A DNA stretch of 64,000 nucleotides from Clostridia bacterium (GTDB taxonomy: Bacteria; Bacillota; Clostridia; Oscillospirales; QAMX01): assembly GCA_017441705.1 (NCBI GenBank), contig JAFRWU010000056.1, positions 1-64,000 of the forward strand, read 5' to 3'. Made by a program: the position numbers and the translations under genes. The notes beneath the pieces were generated by a model that was not told where the DNA came from, did no database searches, and worked only from the letters and a program-made list of their open reading frames with translations. The stretch's first letter is position 1. The number at the start of each line of letters is the position of its first letter. Of this stretch, positions 15,244-34,901 are shown in pieces.

Positions 15244-16560
15244 ATGGATAAAGATACCATCAGAAACGATCCGAGATTTCGAGGACTGACCCCTTTTTCT
15301 TCCCGTATCTGGCTATCCTCCCCGACGATGCACGGCGAGGAACAGAAATGGGTGGACGAAGCGATCCGGACGAACTGGGTCAGTACCGTCGGAGAAAATA
15401 TCAACGAAGTCGAGCGACAGATGGCGGAATACGTCGGCTGCAGATATGCGGTGGCGCTGTCCGCCGGTACTGCCGCTCTGCATCTTGCTACCAGGCTTGC
15501 CGGAGAAAAGCTTTACGGCCAGGCGCGGCCCGAACGGGGCACGCTTTCGGGCAGAAAAGTCTTCTGCTCGGACTGCACCTTCGACGCATCGATCAACCCG
15601 GTGGGATATGAAGACGGCGAGGCCGTATTCATCGACACGGAATACGATACGTGGAATATGGATCCCGTCGCGCTGGAAAAAGCGTTTTCGCTCTATCCGG
15701 ACGTCCGGCTGGCGGTCGTGGCGCATCTCTACGGGACGCCCGGCAAAATGGACCGGATCAGGGAGATCTGCGAGGAGCACGGCGCGCTGATCGTCGAGGA
15801 TGCGGCCGAAAGCCTCGGGGCGAAATACAGGCTGGGGGACCGGTGGGTAGAAACCGGGACCCTCGGACAGTATAACTGCATCAGCTTCAACGGCAACAAG
15901 ATCATCACCGGCAGCGCGGGCGGCATGTTCCTGACCGATTCCCGCGAGGATGCGGAAAAGGTCCGCAAATGGTCTACCCAGAGCCGCGAGGCCGCTCCCT
16001 GGTATCAGCACGAGGAGATCGGCTACAACTACCGGATGAGCAATATCGTCGCGGGCGTCATTCGCGGACAGCTCCCGTACCTTGCGGAGCATATCGCCCA
16101 GAAAAGGGCGGTATGGGAACGCTATGAGAAGGGTCTCGCCGATCTGCCGGTCAGGATGAATCCCTGGGACCGGGAAAAGAGCGTTCCGAATTTCTGGCTG
16201 AGCTGCATGATCATCGACCGGGACGCCATGGCGCCGTCGATCAGGGGAGAGCGGGAATATCTCTATCAAAGCGAAGCCGGAAAAAGCTCGCCGCACGAAA
16301 TCCTGGACGCATTGGCGGCCTTCGGCGCGGAGGGACGGCCGATCTGGAAGCCCATGCATATGCAGCCGATCTACCGCTCGAATCCCTTCGTAACGGCGGA
16401 GGGAAGCGGACGCGGAAAAAGCAACGCCTACATCGCGGGGACCGGCGTCGACGTCGGCGCGGATATTTTCCGGCGCGGTCTGTGCCTCCCGTCTGACAAC
16501 AAGATGACGAAAGAGCAGCAGGACGTCATTATCGAGATCATTCACAGGTGCTTCGAGTAA
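15244..16560 (+). CDS. pglE: DegT/DnrJ/EryC1/StrS-family sugar aminotransferase (PglE-like)
   Basis: A 438-residue PLP-dependent enzyme expected to aminate the 4-keto-6-deoxy sugar made by PglF, using glutamate. The cofactor lysine is Lys219 in SFNGNKIITGSAGG. The upstream EDAAESLGA motif is the usual PLP-contacting DAA. The N-terminal SLSSPTMHGEEQKWVDEAI-like region is characteristic of the family. It is somewhat longer than typical PglE (about 390), with extra sequence in the C-terminal third. The start follows AAAGGAAAAGAT. Position between pglF and pglC supports the pathway assignment. Confidence 0.88.
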   Translation: MDKDTIRNDPRFRGLTPFSSRIWLSSPTMHGEEQKWVDEAIRTNWVSTVGENINEVERQMAEYVGCRYAVALSAGTAALHLATRLAGEKLYGQARPERGTLSGRKVFCSDCTFDASINPVGYEDGEAVFIDTEYDTWNMDPVALEKAFSLYPDVRLAVVAHLYGTPGKMDRIREICEEHGALIVEDAAESLGAKYRLGDRWVETGTLGQYNCISFNGNKIITGSAGGMFLTDSREDAEKVRKWSTQSREAAPWYQHEEIGYNYRMSNIVAGVIRGQLPYLAEHIAQKRAVWERYEKGLADLPVRMNPWDREKSVPNFWLSCMIIDRDAMAPSIRGEREYLYQSEAGKSSPHEILDALAAFGAEGRPIWKPMHMQPIYRSNPFVTAEGSGRGKSNAYIAGTGVDVGADIFRRGLCLPSDNKMTKEQQDVIIEIIHRCFE

Positions 16561-16669
16561 ACGGTTGAATGCGAATCGGGCGTCGCGCAAGGGGAAACTC
16601 CATCGACATATCCTGCGGGAGGAGCGCCCGCGTTTTGAAAAGCAAGTACACGATTGGAGAGAATTGGCA

Positions 16670-17305
16670 ATGACACACAAGCCCAAAGGGCCCTATGAAC
16701 GGTTTATAAAGCGTCCGCAGGATTTCCTTCTTGCACTGGCCGCGTTGATTGTACTGAGTCCGGTGTTGATTGTGACTGCCATTGTCGTACGAATCAAGCA
16801 CGGCTCTCCGGTTTTGTTCTCTCAGGAAAGGCCGGGGCGGAATGGAAAGCTGTTCAGGATTTACAAATTCCGGACCATGAAGGATATCTTTGATGAGAAG
16901 GGAAATCCGTTTCCGGATGAGGACAGATTGACCGCTTTCGGACAAAAGCTGCGCAGCACGTCTCTTGACGAACTGCCGGAACTGTTCAATATCCTGAAAG
17001 GCGATATGAGCATCGTCGGACCGCGCCCTTTGCTTGCGCGATATCTCACCAGATACAATAAACATCAGGCGCGCCGGCACGAGGTCCGGCCGGGCCTGAC
17101 GGGATTGGCACAGATTCACGGCAGGAACGCGATCAGCTGGGCAGACAAATTCAACTGGGACGTCAAATATGTCGACAACGTTACGTTTCTGGGCGACTGG
17201 AGCATCATCCTGAAAACGGTATTGAAGGTTTTCAAACGGGAAGGGATCAGTCTGGAATCGTTTGCGACTACCGAAGAATTTATGGGGAATCCAGAAGATG
17301 AATGA
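16670..17305 (+). CDS. pglC: PglC-type undecaprenyl-phosphate sugar phosphotransferase
   Basis: A 211-residue monotopic phosphoglycosyl transferase. It transfers the sugar-1-phosphate (by context a bacillosamine derivative) from UDP-sugar to undecaprenyl phosphate and so initiates the repeat unit. An N-terminal re-entrant helix (about residues 15-40) is followed by SQERPGRNGKLFRIYKFRTM. The catalytic Asp-Glu pair is in SLDELPELFNILKGDMSIVGPRP, close to the family consensus. The small size and lack of extra membrane domains fit PglC rather than WbaP. The start at 16670 has GGAGAG upstream; an in-frame upstream extension lacks a site. pglD starts eight bases before its stop. Confidence 0.92.
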   Translation: MTHKPKGPYERFIKRPQDFLLALAALIVLSPVLIVTAIVVRIKHGSPVLFSQERPGRNGKLFRIYKFRTMKDIFDEKGNPFPDEDRLTAFGQKLRSTSLDELPELFNILKGDMSIVGPRPLLARYLTRYNKHQARRHEVRPGLTGLAQIHGRNAISWADKFNWDVKYVDNVTFLGDWSIILKTVLKVFKREGISLESFATTEEFMGNPEDE

Positions 17306-17960
17306 CGTAAAAAAGATCGTATTGATAGGAGCCGGGGGATTCGGCCGTGAAGTGGCTTCCATGATTGAAGTACTCAACGAAATAAAGCCGACGTATGAGC
17401 TTTTGGGTTTTCTGGACGATGGCAGCCAGTATCACGACGGGGTTGTGATCAATGGGTATCCGTGGCTCGGGAACCATGATTGGATCGTTGAGCATAAAGC
17501 GGAAACGGTTTGCACGTGTTGTATCGCCAATCCGAAGATCAAAAAGAAAATCCAGGAGGAGCTCACAGAAAAAGGGGTCGTATTTGAAACGATCATTGCG
17601 TATAAGGGATTCGGCTACATCGGACCGGGGACCGAGATCGGACCGGGCTGCGTCTTTTACGGAGGCGTCACCATCTCCGTCGATTGCAAAATTGGCGCCG
17701 GAGTCGTGATGAACCAGATGGTGAATATCGGACACGACGTTTCTATCGGGGATTATACGACGATCATGCCGTTTACCGGGATCAGCGGAAACTGTAAGGT
17801 CGGCGAGACGGTCAATATCGGAGGGCATGCTTTTGTCGTTCCCGGCAGGAAGATCGGCGACGGCGCTACGGTGGCTGCAGGAAGCATCGTATTTGCAAAC
17901 GTGAAGGCCGGCACGACTGTGCTTGGAAATCCCGCAAAGAGGATGAGGGAACTGGAATAA
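17298..17960 (+). CDS. pglD: PglD/NeuD-family sugar O/N-acyltransferase
   Basis: A 220-residue acyltransferase. The N-terminal Rossmann-like domain begins IVLIGAGGFGREVASMIE. The C-terminal left-handed beta helix has hexapeptide repeats (GPGTEIGPGCVFYGGVTI, IGDYTTIMPFTGISGN, VNIGGHAFVVPGRKIGDG). PglD acetylates the C4 amine of UDP-4-amino sugars using acetyl-CoA. Given the acyl-carrier module in the same operon, this enzyme or a variant could take a 3-hydroxyacyl donor instead; nothing in the sequence settles that. It overlaps pglC by eight bases (ATGAATGA), so the two are coupled. Confidence 0.88.
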   Translation: MNDVKKIVLIGAGGFGREVASMIEVLNEIKPTYELLGFLDDGSQYHDGVVINGYPWLGNHDWIVEHKAETVCTCCIANPKIKKKIQEELTEKGVVFETIIAYKGFGYIGPGTEIGPGCVFYGGVTISVDCKIGAGVVMNQMVNIGHDVSIGDYTTIMPFTGISGNCKVGETVNIGGHAFVVPGRKIGDGATVAAGSIVFANVKAGTTVLGNPAKRMRELE

Positions 17961-17990: not shown

Positions 17991-19463
17991 ATGATCATGG
18001 GTGAAAACAAAGTAAACAACAGGCTTTTGCTGAAAACGAGCTTTTGGTATACGCTGTCCAATTTCCTCACTCACGGCATATCGTTTATTACCATACCGAT
18101 TTTCACACGGCTGATGTCAAAGGCCGAATATGGGGATTTTTCGGTTTATTCCAATTGGCAGCAGATACTGGCTATCATATGCGGCGTCGAGGTGGCGGCC
18201 ACCATGAACCGGGCGCGGTTTGATTTCCAGAAGAAGGAGGAATTTGACGCCTATACGACCTCGAGCCTTTTTTTATCTACGGTCGTTACCAGCTCGTTTT
18301 TGATTTTATACTTACTGTTTCCCGATTTTTTTGGCAGCTGGTTCCTGATCAAGCGCGAATACATGATGATCATGTTCGCATACCTGTTTACTCTGCCGGC
18401 GGTTTCCGTGTTTCTTGTCAGGCAGCGGATCGGGTATAAGTACAAGCTGAGCGCGGCGTATACGATCACGGTGACCGTTGTTTCTTCACTTGCCGCTTTG
18501 GCGCTGGTTCTGGTCATTCAGTCCGACAGGATACTCGGAAGGATCATAGGGCAGTATACCTTGCCGGTCATTGCAGGACTCGTTTTTTACATCGCGTATC
18601 TCTGCAAAAGCAGAACGATCAGGAAGAAGTATCTCCAATACGCGCTGAGAATGGGACTGCCGCTCGTATTCACGTATCTGGCAAGCCGCATTCTGCTGAC
18701 CTCGGACACCATCGTGCTGAAGCATATGTGTTCTGCCGAAGAGGTCAGCTCCCTGTCGGTGGCGCATTCAGCGGCTCAGATCATCATGCTGTTTGTCCAG
18801 GCCCTGAATATAGCGTGGGCTCCCTGGCTTTATGATATGCTGAAGATCAAAGAGTACAAGAGTATTAAAAAACTATACGTTTTGTATCTTTGGGGCGTGA
18901 CAGCTTTCACGCTTTGCATTCTGCTGGTGGGGCCGGAAGTGATAACGGTTCTGGGGGGCGAAAAATATAAAGACGCCTTGTATCTGCTTCCGCCATACAT
19001 CCTGACCGGCATCTTTACCGCCTTTACGTCCCCGTTCGGATACCTGGAGACGTACAATAAGAAACCGGAGATATCCGCTGTGCTGACCGGAATCGTGGCG
19101 GCTTTGAACGTGGGGCTGGATATTGTCGGCGTTCACTTCTTTGGCTACCAGGCGGTTTGCTATGCGACGGTGCTCTGCCAGATCCTGCTCATTGTTCTGC
19201 ATTACGTGTTTACGAAAAAATACGGTATAAAGGAGATTCTTCAGGTCGGTACGCTGGGAAGCGTGCTTGCCGCAGCGCTTGCCCTGATCCCGTTCAGCTT
19301 TCTGATATATACCAATACCGCGGTCCGGGTAGGAGCAATCATCCTGTTCGCAATCGCCGTGATCACGGCTGCAGCTTTCAATTTCAAAAGGATAAAGTCT
19401 TTTCTCGATAAGCTTCTCCGGTCAAGAAGAAAGGACAAGGATACAACAGGAGGTCAAACATGA
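17991..19463 (+). CDS. wzx: Wzx-type lipid-linked oligosaccharide flippase
   Basis: A 490-residue integral membrane protein of the MOP/polysaccharide transporter superfamily, with about 12-14 hydrophobic segments across its length. The N-terminus (LLKTSFWYTLSNFLTHGISF, then PIFTRLMSKAEYGDFS) is characteristic of the Wzx/RfbX family. It should flip the undecaprenyl-linked unit built by PglC to the outer face for the Wzy protein at 23792-25153. ATG codons at 17991 and 17997 are both possible. Base composition here is visibly lower in GC than the flanking housekeeping genes. Its last codons overlap fabD (ATGA). Confidence 0.88.
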   Translation: MIMGENKVNNRLLLKTSFWYTLSNFLTHGISFITIPIFTRLMSKAEYGDFSVYSNWQQILAIICGVEVAATMNRARFDFQKKEEFDAYTTSSLFLSTVVTSSFLILYLLFPDFFGSWFLIKREYMMIMFAYLFTLPAVSVFLVRQRIGYKYKLSAAYTITVTVVSSLAALALVLVIQSDRILGRIIGQYTLPVIAGLVFYIAYLCKSRTIRKKYLQYALRMGLPLVFTYLASRILLTSDTIVLKHMCSAEEVSSLSVAHSAAQIIMLFVQALNIAWAPWLYDMLKIKEYKSIKKLYVLYLWGVTAFTLCILLVGPEVITVLGGEKYKDALYLLPPYILTGIFTAFTSPFGYLETYNKKPEISAVLTGIVAALNVGLDIVGVHFFGYQAVCYATVLCQILLIVLHYVFTKKYGIKEILQVGTLGSVLAAALALIPFSFLIYTNTAVRVGAIILFAIAVITAAAFNFKRIKSFLDKLLRSRRKDKDTTGGQT

Positions 19464-20386
19464 AAATCGGAGTATTGTTTTCGGGCCAGGGAGCCCAGTA
19501 TCCCGGCATGATGAAAGATCTTTACGAGTCGGAGCCTGCCGCGAAGGATCTTTTTGACAAAGCAGATGCGGCGCTGGGAAGAGAGATCTCCAAGGTATGC
19601 TTTGAAGGCACCCAGGAGGAGCTGAATCTTACCCACAATACACAGCCGTGCATGCTGGCCGGGGATCTTGCGGCTTCTTTGATCCTGAGGGCTCACGGCA
19701 TTGAAGCCGATGCGGTCGCCGGTTTTTCCCTCGGAGAGTATGCCGCCCTTGCATACGCCGGGGCTATTTCCATCGAAGAGGTTTTCCGCATCATCCAGAT
19801 ACGGGCGGACGCCATGCAGGAAGCCGTTGCTCCGGGAGAAGGGGCGATGGCGGCGTTTGTCGGCGCCTCTGCAAAGCAGGTAGAGGAAATATGCGGCAAG
19901 GTCACGAGAGGATATGTCGTGCCCGCCAATTACAACAGTCCGGTACAGACGGTCGTGTCCGGCTCGGTGAGCGGAGTCGACGAAGCCTGTGAACTTGCGG
20001 AGGCTTCCGAACTCCGGTGCGTCAGGCTCGCGGTAAGCGCTCCGTTCCACTGTGCTTTGATGGAGCCGGCGGCAAAAAGGCTGGAAAAGGAATTCGGGTC
20101 GACAAGCTTCCGGAATCCCTCGGTCCCGGTTTATATGAACGTCGACGGAAAGCCGGTCACAGACGGCGCTCTGATCGCGGAACTGCTTGTAAAACAGGCG
20201 ATGAGTCCGGTCCGCTGGGTGCAGACGCTTGAGAATATGCAGGCGGATGGGATCGACACCTTTATTGAGTGCGGCGCGGGGAAGACGCTTTCCGGCCTTG
20301 TCAAGAAGACGCTGAAGGACGTAAGGATTCTCCGGGTCGAGAACGTAAAGACCCTGAAGGAAACTCTGGAGGAACTGACGGCTTGA
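19460..20386 (+). CDS. fabD: Malonyl-CoA:ACP transacylase
   Basis: A 308-residue acyltransferase that moves malonyl from CoA to an acyl carrier protein. The N-terminal FSGQGAQYPGM is diagnostic. The nucleophile is Ser90 in GFSLGEYAAL, with His197 in SAPFHCALM. Arg115 in IQIRADAMQ is the residue that salt-bridges the malonyl carboxylate, so malonyl specificity is likely kept. It starts at an ATGA overlap with wzx, which couples it directly to polysaccharide genes rather than to a housekeeping fab operon. Ribosome site AGGAGGTC. Confidence 0.93.
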   Translation: MKIGVLFSGQGAQYPGMMKDLYESEPAAKDLFDKADAALGREISKVCFEGTQEELNLTHNTQPCMLAGDLAASLILRAHGIEADAVAGFSLGEYAALAYAGAISIEEVFRIIQIRADAMQEAVAPGEGAMAAFVGASAKQVEEICGKVTRGYVVPANYNSPVQTVVSGSVSGVDEACELAEASELRCVRLAVSAPFHCALMEPAAKRLEKEFGSTSFRNPSVPVYMNVDGKPVTDGALIAELLVKQAMSPVRWVQTLENMQADGIDTFIECGAGKTLSGLVKKTLKDVRILRVENVKTLKETLEELTA

Positions 20387-21015
20387 TCGGGATAAAAAGG
20401 TTTGAGTCGGACCTTTTATCCTCCAATATGTACCTGGTCGTTGAAGGAGAGCATGCGATCGTCATAGATCCGTTTGCGGATACGTCCCCGGCGCAGGGCC
20501 TGACAGTTGATTATATTTTTCTGACGCATGAGCACTATGACCACATATCCGGCGTAAACGCATGGAAAAAGGAAAGAAATATTCCTGTCGTCTGCAGCAG
20601 GGCGTGTGCAGAAAGGATTCGGGATCCCAAAAAGAATCTGGCGTTCTATTTCAAAGAATTCTGCGAGATTCAGACGTGGGTAAAGCTGGAAGAGATTCCG
20701 GCCTATGATCCGGACTATTCGTGTCAGGCGGACAAGGTCTTCGAGGATGAAATGGTTATGGAATGGCTCGGGCATACGTGGCGTCTTTTTGAATTGCCGG
20801 GGCATTCAATGGGCAGCATCGGGATCCTTCTGGATAACGGCAGGTTCTTTTCGGGGGACAGCCTTATTCAGAACTGCGAGACGGCCTTGAGGCTTCCGGG
20901 CGGAAGCCGGAAGAAGTGGAATGACGTAAGCATCCCCAGGCTGAACGCGATCCCGCAGAGTGTTCGTGTGTACCCGGGACACTTTACGGATTATGACCGG
21001 GTTGGTATGGATTGA
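20383..21015 (+). CDS. MBL-fold metallo-hydrolase
   Basis: A 210-residue metallo-beta-lactamase-fold hydrolase. The metal-binding core is THEHYDH, with later ligands in LPGHSMGS and SGDSLI, and YPGHFTDY at the end, the glyoxalase II-like pattern. I chose the TTG at 20383, overlapping the fabD stop (TTGA), because GGAGGAACTGACGGC precedes it. Glyoxalase II-like proteins often cleave thioesters. Lying between fabD and fabG, it may hydrolyse acyl-ACP or acyl-CoA, either proofreading or releasing product; that role is inferred only from position. Confidence 0.82.
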   Translation: MIGIKRFESDLLSSNMYLVVEGEHAIVIDPFADTSPAQGLTVDYIFLTHEHYDHISGVNAWKKERNIPVVCSRACAERIRDPKKNLAFYFKEFCEIQTWVKLEEIPAYDPDYSCQADKVFEDEMVMEWLGHTWRLFELPGHSMGSIGILLDNGRFFSGDSLIQNCETALRLPGGSRKKWNDVSIPRLNAIPQSVRVYPGHFTDYDRVGMD

Positions 21016-21065
21016 CGGTATCGCAGTTTCGGAAATTGAATCTGACAATGTTTAGGAGGTTCGTT

Positions 21066-21836
21066 ATGTACGATTACATTCAAATGGAAGGCAAGCACGT
21101 CCTGGTCACCGGCGGCGCTTCCGGCATTGGCCGGCAGACCGCCATCACGCTCAGTGAGCTTGGCGCCAGAGTCTCGATCCTGGACCTTCAGGAAGAGGGA
21201 TTAAAGGAAACGCTGTCCATGCTGAAGGGCGAGGGCCACACCGTTCATGCCGTGGATTTGTCCAGGATCGAGGAGCTTGAGCCCCTGATTGTGGGGATCG
21301 TTCAGGAAACGGGTCCGTTTGACGGCTATGTCCAATGCGCGGGCATCGTCAAGAGCCTTCCGCTCATCAACTATAAGTTTGAGCGCCTTCATAAGATCAT
21401 GCTCGTCAACTTCTATTCTTTCTTTGAGATTTGCAGGATCCTCAGCAAGAAGGGACGTTTCAACGAAGGCATGAGCATCGTCGGTATCTCTTCGATCCAC
21501 GCCACGCACGGCGCAACCGCCCAGGCGGCTTACAGCGCGTCCAAGGCCGCGATGGACGGGGCGATGCGCAGTCTGGCCAGGGAGCTCGGTGAGAAAGGCA
21601 TTCGCGTGAATACCGTCCAGCCTGCGGCGACCACGACGGCGATGTACACCGATTTCATGGCGCTGAAGGCTACGGCAAAGGAGACCGAGATGAAGGTCAA
21701 GGAAAGTCCGCGTCAGTTCCTGGGCATGAACGCACCGTTGGACGTGGCGAATGCGATCATTTTCCTGCTTTCCCCTGCTTCCCGCACCATCACAGGCGTT
21801 CATCTGCCGGTTGACGGCGGATTCGCTGCTTGCTGA
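21066..21836 (+). CDS. FabG-like short-chain dehydrogenase/reductase 1
   Basis: A 256-residue NAD(P)-dependent reductase. The cofactor motif is TGGASGIG (residues 15-22). The catalytic Ser142/143, Tyr156 and Lys160 are in GISSIHATHG and YSASK. The C-terminal FLLSPASRTITGVHLPVDGG is typical of 3-oxoacyl-ACP reductases. It would reduce a 3-oxoacyl-ACP made by the adjacent FabH. The start at 21066 is fixed by TTTAGGAGGTTCGTT. It resembles the second SDR at 29859-30611 in the (F/N)FNEGM(S/G)IVGISS segment, so they are likely paralogues. Confidence 0.88.
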   Translation: MYDYIQMEGKHVLVTGGASGIGRQTAITLSELGARVSILDLQEEGLKETLSMLKGEGHTVHAVDLSRIEELEPLIVGIVQETGPFDGYVQCAGIVKSLPLINYKFERLHKIMLVNFYSFFEICRILSKKGRFNEGMSIVGISSIHATHGATAQAAYSASKAAMDGAMRSLARELGEKGIRVNTVQPAATTTAMYTDFMALKATAKETEMKVKESPRQFLGMNAPLDVANAIIFLLSPASRTITGVHLPVDGGFAAC

Positions 21837-21856: not shown

Positions 21857-22942
21857 ATGATTTTTAGTAAGTTTGACGATGTCAAGATTGCGGCTATTTC
21901 CGCTTCCGTTCCGGAAAATATCGTTGATATTGCTGCGAAGCTTGATGATCCGAATGAAGATCCGAAGTTCATTAAGCATTTTATGAAAAATACCGGAATC
22001 AAAGCGAAGCATAAGAGCGGATATGAGCAGACGGCAGCGGATTTTTCGTTTTCTGCCGCCAAGCAAATCATGGAAGCTGGATACTATAAGCCTGAAGAGA
22101 TTGGTATCCTTATCAATATCACACAGACTCCTGACTATCGTACCCCTTCTACTGCTATGACGATTCAGAAGCGCCTTGGCCTTTCGAAAGACTGTATGGT
22201 TTTCGATATCAACCTTGGCTGTTCCGGGTTCGTTTATGGTGTTTCTCTTGCGGCAAGCGTGCTGAAAACCTCTTCAGCGACGAAAGGCTTAGTAACCGTA
22301 GGGGACACTCTTGCACGCGGCAGAAAGCACATAAAACTGAAAAGATCATCTAACACGGGGCTTCTGTTCGGAGATGCGAGTGCTGCGATTCTGCTGGAGA
22401 AGGATGCAGATCGTGGTTTTTGCTCTGCTTTGATGAGCGATGGCACGGGGCATAAAGCGTTGTCAATTCCGTATAATGCATGGAAACATCCTGAAGGCCC
22501 GGAGAGTGTTCCAGGAGATGATATTGCTGTCTTCAATTTTACTATCAACGAAGTACCTGCCATCCTTAACGCATACTTGGAGAAAACTGGTACGATAATT
22601 GAGGATTATGATGACCTTGTTCTGCATCAGGCGAATATGATGATTCTTAAGAACGTGGCAAAGCGGGTAGGGATGCCTATGGATAAAGTGCCTGTTTGTC
22701 TTGATCGCTATGGTAACACGAGCGGTTGTTCGGTACCGTTGACTATTGTTGATAAGTACGGAGAGTCAGATGATGACAAGGAAGTCAATCTGTTGACCAG
22801 TTCGTTCGGCGTGGGCCTGTCATGGGGCGTGATAGGCTTTAAGATGAATGTGAAAGATATCCTTCCAATAACAATTGGAAAGGATACATACGAAGACGGT
22901 TATTCTGACGATGCAGAGATGGATCAGGTAGCAGAGGAATAA
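21857..22942 (+). CDS. FabH-like 3-oxoacyl-ACP synthase III, copy 1
   Basis: A 361-residue ketosynthase III that condenses an acyl-CoA starter with malonyl-ACP. The triad is complete: Cys122 in NLGCSGFVYG, His257 in VLHQAN and Asn287 in RYGNTSG. It is longer than E. coli FabH (317) because of an acidic C-terminal tail of about 30 residues. It is preceded by AGGAGGTTGTTGAG. Codon use is noticeably richer in T-ending codons than fabD or fabG beside it, suggesting a different origin. A divergent homologue lies at 28762-29847. Confidence 0.9.
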   Translation: MIFSKFDDVKIAAISASVPENIVDIAAKLDDPNEDPKFIKHFMKNTGIKAKHKSGYEQTAADFSFSAAKQIMEAGYYKPEEIGILINITQTPDYRTPSTAMTIQKRLGLSKDCMVFDINLGCSGFVYGVSLAASVLKTSSATKGLVTVGDTLARGRKHIKLKRSSNTGLLFGDASAAILLEKDADRGFCSALMSDGTGHKALSIPYNAWKHPEGPESVPGDDIAVFNFTINEVPAILNAYLEKTGTIIEDYDDLVLHQANMMILKNVAKRVGMPMDKVPVCLDRYGNTSGCSVPLTIVDKYGESDDDKEVNLLTSSFGVGLSWGVIGFKMNVKDILPITIGKDTYEDGYSDDAEMDQVAEE

Positions 22943-22952
22943 ACTGGCTTTT

Positions 22953-22966
22953 CCAGCACGTGCTGG
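22953..22966. promoter_or_regulatory. 14-bp palindrome upstream of the acp pair
   Basis: CCAGCACGTGCTGG is a perfect palindrome centred on CACGTG. It lies 36 bases before the first ACP start, just upstream of an AT-rich TATTATACTAATTAA stretch that could hold a -10 box. It could be an operator or a short hairpin. No -35 match is convincing. Confidence 0.35.
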
Positions 22967-23001
22967 TGAGCATATTATACTAATTAAGGGAGGATACCAA
23001 T

Positions 23002-23223
23002 ATGACCGAACGCGAAAAGCTGGCGCTGCTCGAAGACATGATGGAGCTGGATGAGGGCGACCTTACCGTGGACAAGGCTCTCGACGATATCGACGAGTAC
23101 GATTCCATGGCGAAGCTTTCCCTGATCGTTCTCATGGAGGATGAATTCGGCGTGAAGCTGACCGGCGACGTGATCAAGGGCTTTGAGACCGTCGGCGATA
23201 TCGTGGCCTTGATGAATAAGTAA
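23002..23223 (+). CDS. Acyl carrier protein, copy 1
   Basis: A 73-residue acidic four-helix carrier. Ser35 in EYDSMAKLSL is the phosphopantetheine attachment site (DSM in place of the usual DSL). The final helix reads GDIVALMNK. It follows GGGAGGATACCAAT. Its protein sequence is identical to that of the second copy 71 bases downstream. It should carry malonyl, 3-oxoacyl and 3-hydroxyacyl groups for the FabD/FabH/FabG proteins of this operon, after activation by the transferase at 34320-34901. Too divergent at DSM to be the obvious housekeeping AcpP. Confidence 0.93.
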   Translation: MTEREKLALLEDMMELDEGDLTVDKALDDIDEYDSMAKLSLIVLMEDEFGVKLTGDVIKGFETVGDIVALMNK

Positions 23224-23294
23224 ACAGGTTCAAAGCAGGGGAATCTCAAGAGTATCGAGGTTGTCCGCAATTGAGGAAAATGGAGGAAAGAAAA

Positions 23295-23516
23295 ATGACC
23301 GAACGCGAAAAACTGGCGCTGCTCGAAGACATGATGGAACTGGACGAAGGCGATCTTACCGTGGACAAGGCTCTCGACGATATCGACGAGTACGATTCCA
23401 TGGCGAAGCTTTCCCTGATCGTTCTCATGGAGGATGAATTCGGCGTGAAGCTGACCGGCGACGTGATCAAGGGTTTTGAGACCGTCGGCGACATCGTGGC
23501 TTTGATGAACAAGTAA
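23295..23516 (+). CDS. Acyl carrier protein, copy 2 (identical protein)
   Basis: A second 73-residue carrier with exactly the same amino-acid sequence as copy 1. The two reading frames differ only at third codon positions (nine by my count), while the middle stretch of about 120 bases is identical. It has its own ribosome site GGAGGAAAGAAAA. The start at 23295 is preferred over an ATG eight codons earlier. The duplication could raise ACP dosage relative to the single-copy enzymes. Confidence 0.93.
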   Translation: MTEREKLALLEDMMELDEGDLTVDKALDDIDEYDSMAKLSLIVLMEDEFGVKLTGDVIKGFETVGDIVALMNK

Positions 23517-23524
23517 ACGGAATT

Positions 23525-23571
23525 GCCCGGGACGATCGTCCGGGACCAATGCATATGCAGGCGTCCCGGGC
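23525..23571. other. Inverted repeat in the acp-wzy gap
   Basis: GCCCGGGAC (23525-23533) and GTCCCGGGC (23563-23571) form a 9-bp stem with a 29-base loop. The 5' arm can alternatively pair locally with GTCCGGG. No T-run follows. It may attenuate transcription or stabilise the acp mRNA. The remaining part of this 275-base gap shows no convincing gene. Confidence 0.45.
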
Positions 23572-23791
23572 GATTGCCCCGCGAAAAAAACAAAAGGAAC
23601 AGGAAAGCGTGAAAGACGGCGCCGTATGAAAACGCGACCGATCCGGATGAGGATTCATGACGGAAACGGATGGGGGGAGACGATGCGGCGCCATCGCAGC
23701 GAAACGGGACCGAATACGGTCTTATTCGGATCCTGTTATGCGGCATTCTTTGCGTCAGGCATTAAGATTTCAGGAAAGGAGGAGTTATACC

Positions 23792-25153
23792 GTGCTGTTG
23801 ATCACGATCGGGGTCGTTTTTCTGCTGTTCGTCGTCTCTTACCTGATCTTTGACAAGGACTTGCTTGCCCCGCCGACCGTTGTTGCGTTGACTTTTTTGT
23901 TTGGCTGCTTATGCTGCCTCTATAATGAGAATACATGGGGATTGAATTTTTCTCTTGATTCCATGGAATTGATTTCAGCGGGGATCGTTGCGACCATGCT
24001 CGGCGGTATCGTAGGGGTTATCCTGTCAAACCGCCCCAAATTGACCACGTATTCCTTCTTTCACGGGATCAGCAAGCCTGAAGAAATAGAGGTGCATCCC
24101 CTCAAAACGTGGATTGTCATCGCTTTCCAGCTGGTGACGGTCGTTCTGGTCTTCAATCATATCTGCAGGGTGACCGGGTATTCGAGCTGGGGTCTCGCGG
24201 TTGCAAAGTACAAGCTTATAACCGGATATCAGGCGGACGTAAACGATACTTCCACGTATATGTCTTTCCTGACCAGAAATATGAATGAAGCCAGCAGATT
24301 GATTGCCTTTGTGTATGCGTATATTATCGGAAACAATCTGGTGGCGTCCAAAAAGAAAATATCGATAAACTGGATCCCCGTCGTTGTGTACACGATCCTG
24401 TCCTTTATGCAGGGGGGGAGAGCGAATCTTGTCCGGTTATGGCTGGTGGTTTTGATCACAGCGTATACGGTCCATAAGAGATCGGTTGGATGGGTGAACA
24501 ACAAGGCGACCAAAAGAGTGATAAGAATAATAGCCTTATCGGTTATTGCGGTAGGGATCCTCTTTTCGGGAGTAAGAGGAATAGTAGGGAGGACGGCGGA
24601 TTCAAATCTGCTTGACTACGTGACTTTTTACGCCGGCTCGCCGATTGCGGTACTCAATCAGGTTTGGGAAGCTCCCGTCACGCAGCCGGCTGTTTTTGGT
24701 GAAAGGATACTGTATTATTTCAATCAAACGACGAGAGTGCTGTTCGGCGTCCCGGAACGGTATACGTTTTATTACAGATATATGCAAAGCCCGAACGGAT
24801 CTCATATCGGGAATGCGCCGACGGCGTTCAGACCCGCCTTTGTTGAATTTGGCCCCGTGGGCTTCCTGCTGTTTTTCATTGCGTGCGGCGCTTTCTTTAC
24901 GTACCTGTATTGCAAGTGCAGACAAAAGAGAGGAAACTCTTCGTTTGATTTCAGGCTTTTGGTCTATTCCTATATTTCCTACACCTTCATGATGTATTTT
25001 TATTCAACGTTCTTTGACTTTTTATCGCATCTCTTTATCAAGTATCTGATTGAAATGTACCTGATTAAGTGGTTCCTGGTCGGGTGGCAGATAAAACCCG
25101 ATATACGCGTATTAGTGAGCAAACGAACAAGAAGCTCGAACCAATTCCTTTAG
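23792..25153 (+). CDS. Wzy-like oligosaccharide repeat-unit polymerase
   Basis: A 453-residue polytopic membrane protein with about 11-12 hydrophobic segments and a larger soluble loop in the second half (QAP-rich region with MQSPNGSHIGNAPTAFRPAF). This pattern fits the Wzy/O-antigen polymerase superfamily, which is recognised by topology rather than sequence. It would join lipid-linked units flipped by Wzx. The GTG at 23792 is chosen because GGAAAGGAGGAG precedes it and the hydrophobic part starts there; an upstream extension is unlikely to be coding. Its place between acp and the transcarboxylase genes shows how interleaved the two functions are. Confidence 0.75.
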   Translation: MLLITIGVVFLLFVVSYLIFDKDLLAPPTVVALTFLFGCLCCLYNENTWGLNFSLDSMELISAGIVATMLGGIVGVILSNRPKLTTYSFFHGISKPEEIEVHPLKTWIVIAFQLVTVVLVFNHICRVTGYSSWGLAVAKYKLITGYQADVNDTSTYMSFLTRNMNEASRLIAFVYAYIIGNNLVASKKKISINWIPVVVYTILSFMQGGRANLVRLWLVVLITAYTVHKRSVGWVNNKATKRVIRIIALSVIAVGILFSGVRGIVGRTADSNLLDYVTFYAGSPIAVLNQVWEAPVTQPAVFGERILYYFNQTTRVLFGVPERYTFYYRYMQSPNGSHIGNAPTAFRPAFVEFGPVGFLLFFIACGAFFTYLYCKCRQKRGNSSFDFRLLVYSYISYTFMMYFYSTFFDFLSHLFIKYLIEMYLIKWFLVGWQIKPDIRVLVSKRTRSSNQFL

Positions 25154-25198: not shown

Positions 25199-26749
25199 AT
25201 GGACCAAAAGTGGAAAGACGCTGTTGAAAAGCTGATTCAAAAAAGAGAAACAGTTTTGGCGGCAGGCGGTTCGGAACGTATCGCAAAACAGCATTCATCG
25301 GGTAAGCTGACCGCAAGAGAACGCATGGAAGCTCTTTTTGATGACGGTACGTTTGTGGAAATCGACGGCATGATTACGTCTCGCGCGGTGGATTTCGGCA
25401 TGGACAAGAAAAAACGTCCCGGCGACGGCGTGGTCACAGGCTATGGCCGCATCCATGGCAGAGTTGCATTTGCATCGTCTCAGGACTTTACTGTCGGAGG
25501 CGGATCTTTGGGAGAGGCTCAGGCCATGAGGATCTGCCGGGCCATGGATAAGGCAATGGAGATGAAGGTGCCGTTCATTTCCATCAATGACAGCGGCGGA
25601 GCAAGGATCGAAGAGGGCATTGACGGCTTGTCCGGCTACGCCGATATTTTCTATCGCAATACCATTGCTTCCGGCGTGATCCCGCAGATTTCGGTTATTC
25701 TCGGCCCCTGCGCGGGGGGCGCCTGTTATTCTCCCGCCATTACCGACTATATCTTTATGACGGAAAAGAACAGCCAGATGTATATTACCGGCCCGGCTGT
25801 TGTGAAGTCCGTAACGGGAGAGGTCATTTCAACTTCCGACCTTGGCGGCGCCGGAGTTCACAGTTCTGTGTCGGGCGTATCTCATTTCGTATATCCTGAC
25901 GATCTCTCCTGCCTGAATGGAGTGCGTCAGCTTCTTGGTTATCTGCCGCAGAACAACGAAGAGATGCCGATGACTGTAAAAGGACATGCGATCGACGGAA
26001 GCGCGGCTCTGTCCGGGATTGTACCGGTGGATTCCAAAAAGCCGTACGACGTCAGAAGCGTGATCAACGCGTTCGTTGATCAGAACAGCTTTTTTGAAGT
26101 GCAGCCGGATTTTGCCCGGAATCTTGTGGTGGGTTTCGCAAGACTGGACGGAGATACGGTCGGTATTGTGGCCAATCAGAGCCAGGTTATGGCAGGCTCG
26201 CTTGAAATCAACGCTTCTGACAAAGGCGCGCGGTTTATTCGATTCTGCGATTGCTTTAACATCCCGCTTCTTACCCTCGTAGATGTTCCGGCTTTCCTGC
26301 CCGGCAGTCAGCAGGAGCATGGCGGAATCATCCGGCACGGTGCGAAGCTGCTTTTTGCGTACTCTGAAGCGACGGTGCCGAAGGTGGGGCTTATTATGCG
26401 AAAGGCATATGGCGGCGCCTACATTGCCATGAACAGCAAAGGGACCGGTGCGGACGTGGTATACGCATGGCCTATCGCCGAGATAGCGGTTATGGGGGCC
26501 AGCGGCGCGGTGTCCATTATCGGGAAAAAGGAAATCGAAAAGGCGGATAATCCGGCGGAGAAGAGGGAAGAGCTGCTGGATGCTTACAACAATAAGTTCA
26601 TGAATCCATATATCGCCGCAGAGCGGGGGTATGTGGATGAAGTTATCCTGCCGGAAGAGACAAGAGAAAAAATAGCGGCTGCTTTCAAAATGCTCAAGAC
26701 GAAGAAACGGTCGCTTCCGCGTAAAAAACATGGGAATATCCCGCTGTAA
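25199..26749 (+). CDS. Acyl-CoA carboxyltransferase, 12S transcarboxylase/PccB-like
   Basis: A 516-residue biotin-dependent carboxyltransferase. It moves CO2 between carboxybiotin and an acyl-CoA such as acetyl- or propionyl-CoA. It has the two crotonase-like domains: N-terminal SGGARIEEGIDGL and GPCAGGACYSPA, and C-terminal GGIIRHGAKLLFAY and GGAYIAMNSKG, which form the two oxyanion holes. The N-terminal GKLTARERMEALFDDGTFVE is typical of PccB/MmdA/12S. The next three genes supply an MmdE-like peptide, a biotin carrier and a 5S-like subunit. With no biotin carboxylase and no membrane beta subunit, a transcarboxylase complex is the best fit. Acyl-CoA choice (acetyl versus propionyl) cannot be read. 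Confidence 0.88.
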   Translation: MDQKWKDAVEKLIQKRETVLAAGGSERIAKQHSSGKLTARERMEALFDDGTFVEIDGMITSRAVDFGMDKKKRPGDGVVTGYGRIHGRVAFASSQDFTVGGGSLGEAQAMRICRAMDKAMEMKVPFISINDSGGARIEEGIDGLSGYADIFYRNTIASGVIPQISVILGPCAGGACYSPAITDYIFMTEKNSQMYITGPAVVKSVTGEVISTSDLGGAGVHSSVSGVSHFVYPDDLSCLNGVRQLLGYLPQNNEEMPMTVKGHAIDGSAALSGIVPVDSKKPYDVRSVINAFVDQNSFFEVQPDFARNLVVGFARLDGDTVGIVANQSQVMAGSLEINASDKGARFIRFCDCFNIPLLTLVDVPAFLPGSQQEHGGIIRHGAKLLFAYSEATVPKVGLIMRKAYGGAYIAMNSKGTGADVVYAWPIAEIAVMGASGAVSIIGKKEIEKADNPAEKREELLDAYNNKFMNPYIAAERGYVDEVILPEETREKIAAAFKMLKTKKRSLPRKKHGNIPL

Positions 26750-26763
26750 TGCCGGAGGGGAAC

Positions 26764-26943
26764 ATGGAGACAGAAAAGATTCTTGCGATGGCCGTCGCTG
26801 CAGCGGCGGAAGAAAACGGAGTCGAGCCTAAGAGGATCATTGTCCGGTCCTTTCGGGAGATCCATAAGAGCAGTCTGGAAAAGTTTATTGCGGACAATCA
26901 CATCACCTATCACAAATATCAATTGGAGGATTCGAGAGCATGA
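26764..26943 (+). CDS. Small soluble MmdE/OadG-C-terminal-like subunit
   Basis: A 59-residue protein. Its ILAMAVAAAAEENG...RIIVRSFREI pattern resembles the C-terminal tail of OadG/MmdD and the 55-residue MmdE subunit, which in decarboxylases helps hold the complex together. There is no transmembrane segment. I prefer the ATG at 26764, behind GGAGGGGAAC, over one at 26749 that overlaps the previous stop. It ends in an ATGA overlap with the biotin carrier gene. It likely bridges the carboxyltransferase subunits; similarity is judged by eye on a short sequence. Confidence 0.6.
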   Translation: METEKILAMAVAAAAEENGVEPKRIIVRSFREIHKSSLEKFIADNHITYHKYQLEDSRA

Positions 26944-27332
26944 GTAAGTATCGTATCATAATGGATGGAAAGACGTACGAAATGGAGATCGAGCTCATCG
27001 ATGAAAACGGCGCCGAACAGCCCGTAATCAGGAAAGAGCAAAAAGAAATCAAAAGTGCTCCGAAGGCTCCCGCAGTAACCGCGGCCGCTCCCCTTGAGCA
27101 GAAACAGGCCGCGACCGGCACGGGGGCGGTTCTTGCTCCGATGCCCGGAACCGTCATTAAGATTGAGAAGAATAAAGGAGAGCCCGTAAAGTCCGGAGAA
27201 GTTGTCCTGATTCTTGAAGCAATGAAGATGGAAAACGAGATCCTGGCGCCCGCCGACGGTACGATCACGGCAATGAACTGTGTTGCCGGCGGGACCGTTG
27301 CCGGCGGGGATGTATTGTTCGAGGTCAAGTGA
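26940..27332 (+). CDS. Biotin carboxyl carrier subunit (1.3S-like)
   Basis: A 130-residue biotinyl protein. An N-terminal segment (about residues 1-35) is followed by an Ala/Pro-rich linker (about 36-60) and a biotinyl domain (about 62-130). The biotinylated Lys96 is in EAMKMENE, and the APMPG and GD..FEVK boundary motifs are present. It would shuttle carboxylate between the 5S-like and 12S-like subunits. A biotin protein ligase must act from elsewhere in the genome. Overlap with the preceding gene (ATGA) and a 10-base gap to the next show tight coupling. Confidence 0.92.
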   Translation: MSKYRIIMDGKTYEMEIELIDENGAEQPVIRKEQKEIKSAPKAPAVTAAAPLEQKQAATGTGAVLAPMPGTVIKIEKNKGEPVKSGEVVLILEAMKMENEILAPADGTITAMNCVAGGTVAGGDVLFEVK

Positions 27333-27342
27333 GGATCCTTTG

Positions 27343-28743
27343 ATGAGTGAACTTTTTGAGAGTAAAAAGCCTCTGCGGATTACGGATACGATATTGCGCG
27401 ACGCACACCAGTCTCAGGCCGCGACTCGTATGAGGATTGAGGATATGCTCCCTGTCTGCGAGGTGCTGGACAGCATCGGCTACTGGTCTGTTGAATGCTG
27501 GGGAGGGGCGACCTTTGATTCCTGCATGCGTTTTCTTCACGAGGATCCGTGGGAGAGGCTGAGGAAACTGAGGAAAGCTTTGCCGAACACAAGGCTTCAG
27601 ATGCTTCTTCGCGGGCAGAATCTTCTTGGATACCGCCACTATGCGGATGATATGGTGGATGCCTTCTGCCGGAAATCGATCGAAAACGGTATCGACGTCG
27701 TACGTATATTCGACGCTTTGAACGACGTCCGCAATATGGAAGCGTCCATGAAAGCCGTAAAGAAGTACGGCGGGATGGTTGAAGCGGCCATGAGCTATAC
27801 AACCAGTCCTGTCCACAGTGAGGAATACTTTGTGGACAAGGCTGTTGTGCTGGAACAGATGGGTGCGGATACGATTTGCATCAAGGACATGGCCAACCTT
27901 CTTCTGCCGGTAAATGCATACAGCCTGGTGAAAAGGCTGAAAGAGCGAGTGTCTATTCCGATCCACTTGCATACACACAATACGACGGGCACCGGCTCTA
28001 TGGTGTATCTCATGGCTGCCATGGCCGGAGTGGATATCATCGACTGTGCTTTGTCGCCCTTCGCCAACGGCACTTCTCAACCCGCCACGGAGTCGGTTGT
28101 TGCGACTCTGAAAGGAACGGAGAGGGACACCGGCCTTGATCTGATGAGGCTCAACGAGGCGGCCGTTCATTTCAAAGGCGTAGCTGCCAGGATGGAGAAG
28201 GAGGGGACGATCAGTTCCAAGGTTCTCCGGGTCGATCCGAATACTCTTCTCTATCAGGTGCCCGGCGGGATGCTTTCCAACCTGCTGTCTCAGCTCAAGC
28301 AGGCGAAAGCAGAGGAACGGCTGGACGAGGTGCTGGCAGAGGTGCCGCGAGTGAGAGCCGATTTCGGCTTTCCTCCGTTGGTGACTCCGACAAGTCAGAT
28401 AGTAGGTACGCAGGCGGTGCTGAATACTCTGATGGGACGCTACAAGAGCTTTACAAAAGAATCGAAAGCTCTTCTGCGCGGGGAGTATGGCGAGCTGCCG
28501 GGTAAGGTGAACGATACGGTCCGGAGGATGGCGATCGGGGACGATACGGTGATCCGCTGCCGCCCCGCGGATCTTCTGGAACCTGAGTTGGACAAAATAA
28601 AAGCACAGTACGGCGATATGGCAAAGACCGAAGAAGATTTGCTGAGTTGTGCTATGTTCCCGCAGGTCGCGCCGGACTTCATCAAAAAGCGGGACGGCCT
28701 GGACGTTCATGAGATTTTTGTGGAATGGGTCGGGAATTCCTGA
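27343..28743 (+). CDS. Oxaloacetate/pyruvate carboxyltransferase subunit (5S/OadA-like)
   Basis: A 467-residue HMGL-like TIM barrel plus PYC_OADA domain. It transfers the carboxyl group of oxaloacetate to biotin, leaving pyruvate. Visible features are TILRDAHQSQ (metal ligand Asp20), the lysine that is carbamylated in the family (Lys181 in CIKDMANL) and the metal ligands His210 and His212 in HLHTHN. It has no C-terminal biotin domain; that function is in the preceding gene. Length and layout match the Propionibacterium transcarboxylase 5S subunit or free OadA. Without OadB it is unlikely to be a sodium-pumping decarboxylase. Confidence 0.88.
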   Translation: MSELFESKKPLRITDTILRDAHQSQAATRMRIEDMLPVCEVLDSIGYWSVECWGGATFDSCMRFLHEDPWERLRKLRKALPNTRLQMLLRGQNLLGYRHYADDMVDAFCRKSIENGIDVVRIFDALNDVRNMEASMKAVKKYGGMVEAAMSYTTSPVHSEEYFVDKAVVLEQMGADTICIKDMANLLLPVNAYSLVKRLKERVSIPIHLHTHNTTGTGSMVYLMAAMAGVDIIDCALSPFANGTSQPATESVVATLKGTERDTGLDLMRLNEAAVHFKGVAARMEKEGTISSKVLRVDPNTLLYQVPGGMLSNLLSQLKQAKAEERLDEVLAEVPRVRADFGFPPLVTPTSQIVGTQAVLNTLMGRYKSFTKESKALLRGEYGELPGKVNDTVRRMAIGDDTVIRCRPADLLEPELDKIKAQYGDMAKTEEDLLSCAMFPQVAPDFIKKRDGLDVHEIFVEWVGNS

Positions 28744-28761: not shown

Positions 28762-29847
28762 ATGGCTTTTTTTCATTTCGATTCTGTACGTATTGCCGGA
28801 GTAGCCTCTGCTGTTCCTACAAAAAGAGTAAAAGTTGAGAGCTTTACAGAGAGATTCGGACAGGATACCGTCGAAAGATTTTCCAAAATGACGGGAGTGA
28901 AGGAGTTCAGGCAGACTCTGGAACACCAAACGGCTTCAGATCTTGGTTTCGCGGCAGCGGAGCAGCTGCTCCGGACAAAGCAGGTCTGCCGGGATGAGAT
29001 TGGCGCGTTGATTTTTATCGCGCACAGCGTCGATTACCGGAGGCCGGCAACTGCCTGCGTACTGCATAAAAGACTTGGACTCTCAAAGGACTGCGCGGCT
29101 TTTGATATTGGTCTGGGCTGTTCTGCAACGGTTTACGGTCTGCAGGCAGCAGGTTCGATGATGGCGAATTCCGATATATCCAAGGCGTTGCTGATAACGG
29201 GAGAAAGCCTGACAAAGATGGTCAATCCCGGCGATAAATCCGTAGCCATGCTGTTCGGCGACGGAGGATCGGCGATCCTGCTGGAGAAGCAAAAGGATTC
29301 TCCGATGGATATTCTTCTGCGGACCGATGGCAACGGTTATAACGCTATTATTGCACCGGCCGGCGGATACAGAAATATGGATGCCCCGCGTCAGGACGCA
29401 GTCTGGCCGGACGGCAATATCAGAAACCTGTACAACACCTATATGAACGGGACGGACGTGTTCAGCTTTACGATCACCGAGGTGCCGGCTGCAATCAGGG
29501 ACTTCGTTGAAAAAACCGGCGTTGGAATTGATGAATATGATTGCTTTGCTTTTCATCAGGCCAATCAGTATATCTCGAAGCAGTTAGCCAAGAAATTCAA
29601 GATCCCTATGGAGAAGATGCCGTTATGCCTTGACCGTTATGGGAATACGTCGGCTCCGGCCGCGACAATGGCACTGTGTGATCGTTACGGAGAGGAAAGC
29701 GGTTCAGAGATCAAGACCATGTTTTGCTGTTTTGGCGTAGGCTTGTCCTGGGGGGTTGCTTCTGCTGCAATCAACACGGAGGACATCCTTCCGATCATTG
29801 AAACGGATGAGATCTTTGAAGAAGGGATCATCAACGAACCGTTTTGA
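28762..29847 (+). CDS. FabH-like 3-oxoacyl-ACP synthase III, copy 2
   Basis: A 361-residue ketosynthase III with triad Cys120 (GLGCSATVYG), His265 (FHQAN) and Asn295 (RYGNTSA). It shares with copy 1 the length, the RLGLSKDC segment, GLSWGV and an acidic tail, but many residues differ. It is a diverged paralogue rather than a recent duplicate. Two active KAS III enzymes beside one FabD suggest either two starters, a heterodimer, or one carrying out condensation and the other acyl transfer to a hydroxyl or amine, a known activity of some KAS III-like enzymes. FabG copy 2 follows at once. Confidence 0.9.
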   Translation: MAFFHFDSVRIAGVASAVPTKRVKVESFTERFGQDTVERFSKMTGVKEFRQTLEHQTASDLGFAAAEQLLRTKQVCRDEIGALIFIAHSVDYRRPATACVLHKRLGLSKDCAAFDIGLGCSATVYGLQAAGSMMANSDISKALLITGESLTKMVNPGDKSVAMLFGDGGSAILLEKQKDSPMDILLRTDGNGYNAIIAPAGGYRNMDAPRQDAVWPDGNIRNLYNTYMNGTDVFSFTITEVPAAIRDFVEKTGVGIDEYDCFAFHQANQYISKQLAKKFKIPMEKMPLCLDRYGNTSAPAATMALCDRYGEESGSEIKTMFCCFGVGLSWGVASAAINTEDILPIIETDEIFEEGIINEPF

Positions 29848-29858
29848 GGAGAAGTGGT

Positions 29859-30611
29859 ATGATTCAGTATAATTTTACCGGAAAGCGGATATTGGTGACG
29901 GGAGCGTCGTCCGGGATAGGGGCCGCTGTCACCAGGACCCTCGCCGACGCGGGGGCGGAAGTGATTATGGTCGCAAAAAATGCCGAGAAGCTGGCTTCAG
30001 CAGCGGAATCGTTGGGCGTTAAGGCGTTTTACCCCATCGACTTATCGGACGTCGCGAGCCTTGGCGCGCAGGTAGAAGCGATCATAAAAGAGCGCGGCCC
30101 TCTTGACGGCTTCGTTCACAGCGCGGGGATCGGAACAGTACGTCCGATTAAAATGTGCACCTATGATTATATGAAGCAGATGATGGATATCAATTTCTTC
30201 TCTTTCATTGAAATCATCCGGGTGATCACGAAGAAGAAAAACTTCAATGAGGGCATGGGCATCGTCGGAATCTCTTCCGTGGCCGCAGAGGAGGGGAATC
30301 AAAGCAAGACGGGTTACTGCGCTTCAAAAGCCGCGATGAATGGAGCGATCAGATGCCTGGCGAAGGAACTGGCGCCCAAGAAGATCCGGGTGAATGCCGT
30401 GATGCCGGGAATCACGAGAACGGCAATCTTTGATCAGATCATGGACAACGGCGGAGACTCGGACGACCTGAAGGGGATCCTTCAGAGACAGTATCTGGGC
30501 GTCTGCGAGCCGGATAATATCGCGAATACAGTGGCGTTTCTTCTGTCAGAGGAATCAAACTTCATCACCGGGTCTGCCGTCGCGGTGGATTCGGGAAGGC
30601 TGTCGTCCTAA
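29859..30611 (+). CDS. FabG-like short-chain dehydrogenase/reductase 2
   Basis: A 250-residue reductase with TGASSGIG (residues 14-21), Ser139/140, Tyr153 and Lys157 (GYCASKAAM). The end reads FLLSEESNFITGSAVAVDSG, as in 3-oxoacyl-ACP reductases. The start at 29859 follows TGAGGAGAAGTGGT. It pairs with FabH copy 2 just as SDR 1 precedes FabH copy 1, giving two ketosynthase/reductase sets. I cannot read the stereochemistry of the 3-hydroxy product; the two reductases may differ in that respect or in chain length. Confidence 0.88.
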   Translation: MIQYNFTGKRILVTGASSGIGAAVTRTLADAGAEVIMVAKNAEKLASAAESLGVKAFYPIDLSDVASLGAQVEAIIKERGPLDGFVHSAGIGTVRPIKMCTYDYMKQMMDINFFSFIEIIRVITKKKNFNEGMGIVGISSVAAEEGNQSKTGYCASKAAMNGAIRCLAKELAPKKIRVNAVMPGITRTAIFDQIMDNGGDSDDLKGILQRQYLGVCEPDNIANTVAFLLSEESNFITGSAVAVDSGRLSS

Positions 30612-31822: not shown

Positions 31823-31835
31823 AGAGGTGTCGTTC

Positions 31836-32927: not shown

Positions 32928-33090
32928 TGGACGGCGCGCGAAAGCAACGATCTGCGGATCAATGCGTACTTCAGCCGGATCATATGCCTTCCCCGCAGCG
33001 GCGGACAGGCGATCACATCCTGTGAACGATTCCTGCATGGAGAAGAAACTCTTTTTCCGTGCAGAATATGTTGAAAGACGAGGTAATAGC

Positions 33091-34254: not shown

Positions 34255-34326
34255 CCGTTCTGCCTTCGCGAGAATCTTGAAATTGCGTATCATCAGAAAC
34301 AGGACCTGGAGAAACAGAATTGCTGA
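34255..34326 (+). pseudogene. C-terminal remnant of a third pyruvyl transferase gene
   Basis: An in-frame stretch ending in TGA encodes FCLRENLEIAYHQKQDLEK and a short tail. It matches the last helix of the two intact paralogues (FLRENLEAAWKEK and YLKNNLEAAYREKQALEQ). No start codon or body of the gene is present upstream, only about 35 bases after the previous stop. It is best read as the residue of a deletion or recombination between tandem copies. Its end supplies the ribosome site of the next gene. Confidence 0.65.
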
Positions 34327-34901
34327 TTGAATGGGCTCCGATTACCGAATTTATTGCCCCCCCTCCGTTTGACGGCGACTTGCTGAATCACCTGAAAAAA
34401 CGGAAAGGGGCGGGTAAAACCGCTTCGTATTCCGCGTGGTGGTTGTTGTATCGGATTTTGAAGAATAACGGCATGTCCATAGGAAGGGTTGCCTTCACCG
34501 ATACAGGAAAACCGTTTTTTGTCGGCGACGCGGTATTCTTCAGTCTTTCTCACAGCAAAGAGCTTTGCGCCGTGTCCGTTTCCGACCGCCCGGTCGGCGT
34601 AGACATGGAGATCTGCCGTGAGGATTATAATCCGCATCTGGTCGAGCGATCTATGACAAAAGGGGAGCGCGCGGCTTTCGACGGGGATTTCACGCGGCTC
34701 TGGTGCAGAAAAGAGAGCGTTGCCAAGTTGACCGGCGAAGGGATCGCGGGATATCCCAACCGGATCGACACGCTTTCGCCTCGATACGCCTATATCGAAA
34801 GAAAACTGGAATTCAACGGTCATACCTACTGGCTCGTCACAGCCGGGATAAACTCATATCAGGTTCAGGGAGAGGAGAATGGATATGAAACGGGCAAATA
34901 A
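34320..34901 (+). CDS. 4'-phosphopantetheinyl transferase (Sfp type)
   Basis: A 193-residue enzyme that attaches the phosphopantetheine arm of CoA to carrier proteins. The two family signatures are present: GVDMEI and, about 45 residues later, LWCRKESVAKLTG. The SLSHS motif comes just before the first. It starts at TTG behind GGAGAAACAGAA. Being in the same operon as two ACPs, it is the likely dedicated activator of those carriers. Its last 23 bases overlap the LRR gene. The N-terminal half is short for Sfp (about 225), as in many small bacterial members. Confidence 0.88.
   Translation: MLIEWAPITEFIAPPPFDGDLLNHLKKRKGAGKTASYSAWWLLYRILKNNGMSIGRVAFTDTGKPFFVGDAVFFSLSHSKELCAVSVSDRPVGVDMEICREDYNPHLVERSMTKGERAAFDGDFTRLWCRKESVAKLTGEGIAGYPNRIDTLSPRYAYIERKLEFNGHTYWLVTAGINSYQVQGEENGYETGK

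Follow-up and report, generated by a model that had tools for sequence, protein, structure and literature searches.

Tandem genes encoding identical acyl carrier proteins in a putative polysaccharide acylation cluster of a Clostridia bacterium

Described acylation systems and the cluster of the window

Two sugar acylation systems that are backed by structural or mutant data serve as precedents (PMC6519341, PMC3927599). The polysaccharide of Flavobacterium psychrophilum carries 3,5-dihydroxyhexanoyl on Qui2NAc4N, and next to the genes of the Qui2NAc4N pathway, wfpC-G provide two KAS genes, one ketoreductase, an acyl carrier protein (ACP) specific to the locus and an acyltransferase of the PglD type (PMC6519341). 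In Pseudomonas syringae, a vioR mutant of the viosamine island (vioS/vioR/acp/vioB) lost modified viosamine. This island and orfB-E of P. aeruginosa PAK have a KASIII, a reductase, an ACP and an acyltransferase, and the product there is an amino sugar that bears a 3-hydroxybutanoyl amide (PMC3927599). A precedent for multiple carriers comes from an unrelated pathway: in PUFA synthases, output rises with the number of tandem ACP domains and the product is unchanged (PMC5067506, PMC3585217).

We analysed a window of 64,000 nucleotides from a Clostridia bacterium, in which two ACP genes sit in a Wzx/Wzy-type polysaccharide cluster at about 12.4-34.9 kb. The earlier note on this DNA recognised the pair itself and missed the cluster around it. 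Judged by sequence, the closest described system is F. psychrophilum wfpC-wfpG with pglE/pglF homologues (PMC6519341). The genes that mark a system of this type, namely KAS genes, a reductase, an ACP and a PglD-type acyltransferase in one polysaccharide locus, are all found in the window. The two systems also differ. One ACP gene (wfpD) is given in the published description of F. psychrophilum, whereas the window has two that encode identical proteins; in addition, the window has two SDRs, its own FabD, a transcarboxylase-like set, an MBL-fold hydrolase and a PPTase, in a Clostridia-type genome. A Flavobacterium haoranii MAG (L090) shows the gene order KAS-ACP-KAS-SDR-PglD-PglC-PglE-PglF. The P. 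syringae and PAK systems share the enzyme types of the window but act through dTDP-viosamine on flagellin, with a single acp and fewer enzymes (PMC3927599), and the ACPs of PUFA synthases are domains of one polypeptide, unlike the separate genes of the window. In the literature searched, tandem ACPs were only found as domains in larger proteins or in unrelated uses. The acylation module is of a known kind, and its multi-copy separate carrier genes appear to be undescribed in that literature.

On the + strand, the sugar and export part of the cluster encodes a PglF-like nucleoside-sugar 4,6-dehydratase (12366-14327), a PglE-like DegT-family aminotransferase (15244-16560), a PglC-like initiating sugar-phosphate transferase (16565-17305, PF02397), a PglD-like hexapeptide N-acyltransferase (17262-17960, PF17836 and PF00132), which is predicted to receive the acyl group from the ACP, and a Wzx-like flippase (17991-19463, PF01943). 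The four Pgl homologues correspond to the pathway for N-acylated bacillosamine. The PglF- and PglE-like proteins match PF02719 and PF01041, which give families only, the UDP-Qui2NAc4N substrate not being readable from sequence. The acyl-building genes are interleaved with this part and begin, on the same strand, with a FabD-type malonyl-CoA:ACP transacylase (19460-20386, TIGR00128 above cut-off), a metallo-beta-lactamase-fold hydrolase that recurs in the module (20269-21015, start uncertain), the ketoacyl-reductase-like SDR1 (21057-21836, start uncertain, YSASK motif) and KASIII-1 (21857-22942, with GCSG, HQAN and YGNTS motifs). Beyond the ACP pair, again on the + strand, lie a Wzy-type oligosaccharide repeat-unit polymerase (23792-25153, TIGR04370 above cut-off, with a probable GTG start in an ORF that opens at 23657), an MmdA-like, 12S-like carboxyltransferase (25199-26749), a 64-aa protein with no Pfam match (26749-26943), a biotin carrier protein (26940-27332, EAMKM biotinylation motif), an OadA/5S-like carboxyltransferase subunit (27337-28743), KASIII-2 (28762-29847), SDR2 (29844-30611, YCASK motif) and an Sfp-type 4'-phosphopantetheinyl transferase (34320-34901). 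Sequence motifs are intact in both KASIII (Cys/His/Asn), both SDRs (YxxxK-type) and FabD (GFSLG), and so is the biotinylation motif.

Within the polysaccharide cluster, the MmdA-like, biotin carrier and OadA/5S-like genes (25199-28743) make up a set that resembles transcarboxylase and has no biotin carboxylase. This set is conserved in the related loci L013, L021 and L051, and an ORF homologous to the 64-aa protein adjoins mmdA in some relatives. The region 30635-34221 encodes an FrhB/FdhB-like iron-sulfur protein and, after it, a pair of polysaccharide pyruvyl transferase homologues, and genes of these types recur together in several related clusters.

The two carrier genes and their relatives

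ACP1 (23002-23223) and ACP2 (23295-23516), both on the + strand, translate exactly into the same 73-aa protein. The genes differ at 9 of 222 nt (CDS positions 18, 45, 51, 54, 60, 180, 198, 207 and 216), and all nine differences are synonymous third-codon transitions (P = 6e-5 for 9/9 synonymous if transitions fell at random). Between them lies an identical block of 119 nt, at 23062-23180 in ACP1 and 23355-23473 in ACP2, which is a candidate conversion tract (permutation P = 0.005 under random placement of nine changes). An AGGAGG-like site precedes each gene, and that of ACP2 lies in the 71-nt spacer (23224-23294), which is without homology to either outer flank. The earlier note had described the identical proteins, the nine silent differences, a shared middle block of about 120 bases and separate ribosome sites, and all of these were confirmed.

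The window ACP matches PF00550 at 29.9 bits (cut-off 20.8), indicating that it is a real, divergent ACP. Its phosphopantetheine serine (D34-S35-M36) is invariant in five homologues. The earlier note had singled out DSM as unusual, but relatives have DSM, NSM, DSI or DSL, and DSM recurs among close relatives; a functional oddity is thereby not supported, and by sequence DSM is ordinary within this subfamily. Duplication of a housekeeping ACP was rejected. The AcpP-type ACPs of the same genome, on contigs C33 and C101 (the latter adjoining plsX), share the PP-binding fold and the serine site with the window ACP but have a DSL motif, are single copies at other loci and show 30-37% identity to it, and the window ACP falls far below the cut-offs of the NCBIfam housekeeping AcpP equivalogs (NF002147, 35.2 vs 84 bits; TIGR00517, 21.6 vs 70).

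An alignment-based scan of named genomes gave 79 related loci (numbered L013 and so on), mostly from draft genomes of gut and rumen Clostridia, and the closest ACPs among them are 86-99% identical to the window ACP. Scans of the same genus, the same family and the first order and phylum sets with the window ACP gave no or only distant matches, and none of the four same-genus relatives carries the cluster ACP. Relatives were absent from the viral contigs and plasmids searched, and a mobile or viral origin was rejected. KASIII and SDR occur in all 59 near-full-length loci (at least 18 kb of sequence), a PglD homologue in 45/59 and two or more KASIII in 40/59.

Nine loci of other species have two or three matching ACPs (L015, L019, L020, L024, L025, L030, L054, L059 and L060). 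Except in L059, the copies are closely related, with 0-8 residue differences where lengths match; L056 has two diverged copies. Downstream of KAS1 there is one copy in L013, L014, L016, L017 and L018, two in L015, L020 and L030 (whose KAS1 is a more distant homologue) and three in L024, and L019 has three copies near the KAS1-linked site. Single-copy loci may be fewer than counted, because copies that are identical can be merged in short-read assembly. L054:222-916, from a Phascolarctobacterium draft genome, contains three ACP genes in tandem that encode identical proteins, and the 19-nt spacers between them are identical as well.

Conversion, duplication and other explanations of the pair

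The earlier note had proposed that selection keeps the protein fixed. This is supported by the L013 orthologue, which differs from the window ACPs by 1 residue but 36-40 nt (pS 0.71-0.79, pN 0.015), a pattern that points to strong purifying selection. It had also suggested gene conversion and proposed asking whether copies within a genome are closer to each other than to orthologues. In the comparison with other species, no same-genus orthologue pair having been found, dS is 0.22 between ACP1 and ACP2 and at least 0.85, in some cases saturated, between either copy and the closest other species (pN 0.015-0.055). Furthermore, the spacer and flank gave an anchored score of 2, within the shuffled range, whereas a homologous spacer with 18% divergence should score about 46. 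Between species, the 119-nt block takes a share of differences proportional to its length; these differences are spread throughout the block, and local nucleotide constraint was for this reason rejected as the source of its identity. The pair thus has a homogenised tract, variable between species, next to flanks that are not homogenised, as expected for conversion.

In the ACP tree, copies from one genome fall together with strong (starred) support in L015, L024, L025, L030, L054 and L060. The window pair (96% identity) has moderate branch support (62/91), and the copies of L019 and L020 are not cleanly grouped by genome. The sole positional orthologues are the two copies of L015, from another, distant lineage, at the same KAS1-wzy position. 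In AU tests of pairing by position, ACP1 with the first of these copies was rejected (p 0.017), and ACP2 with the second was not (p 0.11).

Conversion within the coding sequence alone would explain the dS, spacer and block data, and its main rival is a recent CDS-limited duplication. A recent tandem duplication without any conversion would leave two copies too young to have diverged, with the protein conserved as in all ACPs. The modest dS and the grouping of copies by genome are consistent with such an event, and evidently fresh tandem duplications exist in L024 and L054, where the spacer was copied along with the gene. The window spacer was not copied in this way; it is unrelated to either flank despite coding sequences that differ at 19% of synonymous sites, and the differences flank the identical tract, so we regard a duplication without conversion as rather unlikely. 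As none of the same-genus relatives carries the cluster ACP, conversion is not rigorously separable from a duplication limited to the CDS. The sequence data favour gene conversion within the CDS, or a recent CDS-restricted duplication, together with strong purifying selection, and conversion itself is supported but not proved. That the second copy is false, by misassembly or by a chimera of strains, is very unlikely. This is a draft genome of 120 contigs, and the identical block is near short-read length. On the other hand, the copies carry nine specific differences, the 71-nt spacer and the flanks on both sides are unique, and the pair is interior to a 78.7-kb contig. Moreover, tandem copies occur independently in other species, including Phascolarctobacterium faecium DSM 14760 (L060).

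The copies might instead differ in expression, for example with one basal and the other tied to a transcript that ends in a hairpin or to a promoter-like site upstream, in which case the pair would serve regulation and not bulk dosage. Their upstream sequences and ribosome sites differ, a promoter-like match (22950-22978) lies ahead of ACP1, and a strong RNA hairpin lies 3' of ACP2 on the + strand (23517-23620, -41.3 kcal/mol, z -3.6), possibly a processing or attenuation signal or an mRNA 3' end. However, shuffled sequences would yield 0.8 promoter-like matches where 1 was found, no more than chance, and the two genes are co-directional and only 71 nt apart. Differential expression is therefore possible but unsupported, and we consider it improbable. 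The hairpin is GC-rich and lies within the 275-nt non-coding gap from ACP2 to the Wzy-type gene; no T-run terminator was called after it on the + strand.

Predicted pathway, carrier dosage and genome context

Our preferred reading is that ACP1 and ACP2 are paralogous, dedicated type II carriers of the acylation module, that the pair raises carrier dosage, and that purifying selection and conversion within the CDS keep the copies alike; we consider this reading, as a whole, fairly probable. Both the order of the pathway and its product are predictions. The Sfp-type PPTase would arm the ACP, the transcarboxylase-like set would supply malonyl- (or methylmalonyl-) CoA, and FabD would load this unit onto the ACP. 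The two KASIII and two SDRs would then make a short hydroxyacyl-ACP, such as 3-hydroxybutanoyl or 3,5-dihydroxyhexanoyl, and the PglD-like enzyme would move the hydroxyacyl group from the ACP to a bacillosamine-type UDP-amino sugar. A hydroxyacyl rather than a saturated product is expected, because the whole of the 98%-complete genome yielded no dehydratase of the FabZ/FabA type. A pair of condensing enzymes and a pair of reducing ones match two cycles of malonyl extension with ketoreduction, which makes 3,5-dihydroxyhexanoyl the leading guess; 3-hydroxybutanoyl or a methyl-branched product is a possible alternative. The case also points to surface glycans of gut bacteria, a widespread family, that probably carry short hydroxyacyl groups.

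Because the two proteins are identical, a division of labour by specificity is excluded, and dosage is the simplest reading of identical carriers. Two genes, each with its own ribosome site, would most likely raise carrier dosage, against a background of repeated gain and loss of ACP copies among related clusters. The idea of extra carrier supply in the earlier note is made plausible by the recurrence of two to three copies in related loci and by the PUFA-synthase precedent (PMC5067506), while the role itself is a prediction. The pathway does not require the second copy, since many homologous clusters have a single one.

The cluster holds the only PPTase (PF01648), FabD (TIGR00128) and KASIII (PF08541) detected in the genome. 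FabF and FabZ were not found in this genome, and FabF is absent from all five genomes of the genus, this one included (72-98% complete), whereas it is present in 10/21 genomes of the family; a PPTase is present in some members of the genus. In Clostridia, the fab genes are often grouped in a single operon, so one missing contig could mimic their absence in one genome, but less likely in five. The genus appears to be without FabF, fatty-acid auxotrophy is possible, and the acylation cluster may be the only acyl-ACP chain builder of the cell, which would explain its own FabD, malonyl supply and PPTase. If the genus is without housekeeping elongation, the cluster would amount to an independent acyl pathway that serves the cell surface. 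A bolder reading, which we consider less likely than not, is that gut Clostridia have repeatedly adapted carrier dosage in their mini fatty-acid-synthase clusters for glycan acylation by amplifying separate carrier genes, with conversion keeping the copies uniform, and that in this apparently FabF-less genus such a cluster is the sole acyl-ACP chain builder. Related clusters with one, two or three copies at the same site offer a natural series in which the effect of carrier dosage on a discrete type II pathway can be tested. Many relatives have, directly 3' of the cluster ACP, another type of ACP (beginning MSNIEKYNE; WDSVAHLSLISELED) that is absent from the window, at L019:11521, L020:10234, L024:10523, L026:10227, L031:10233 and others.
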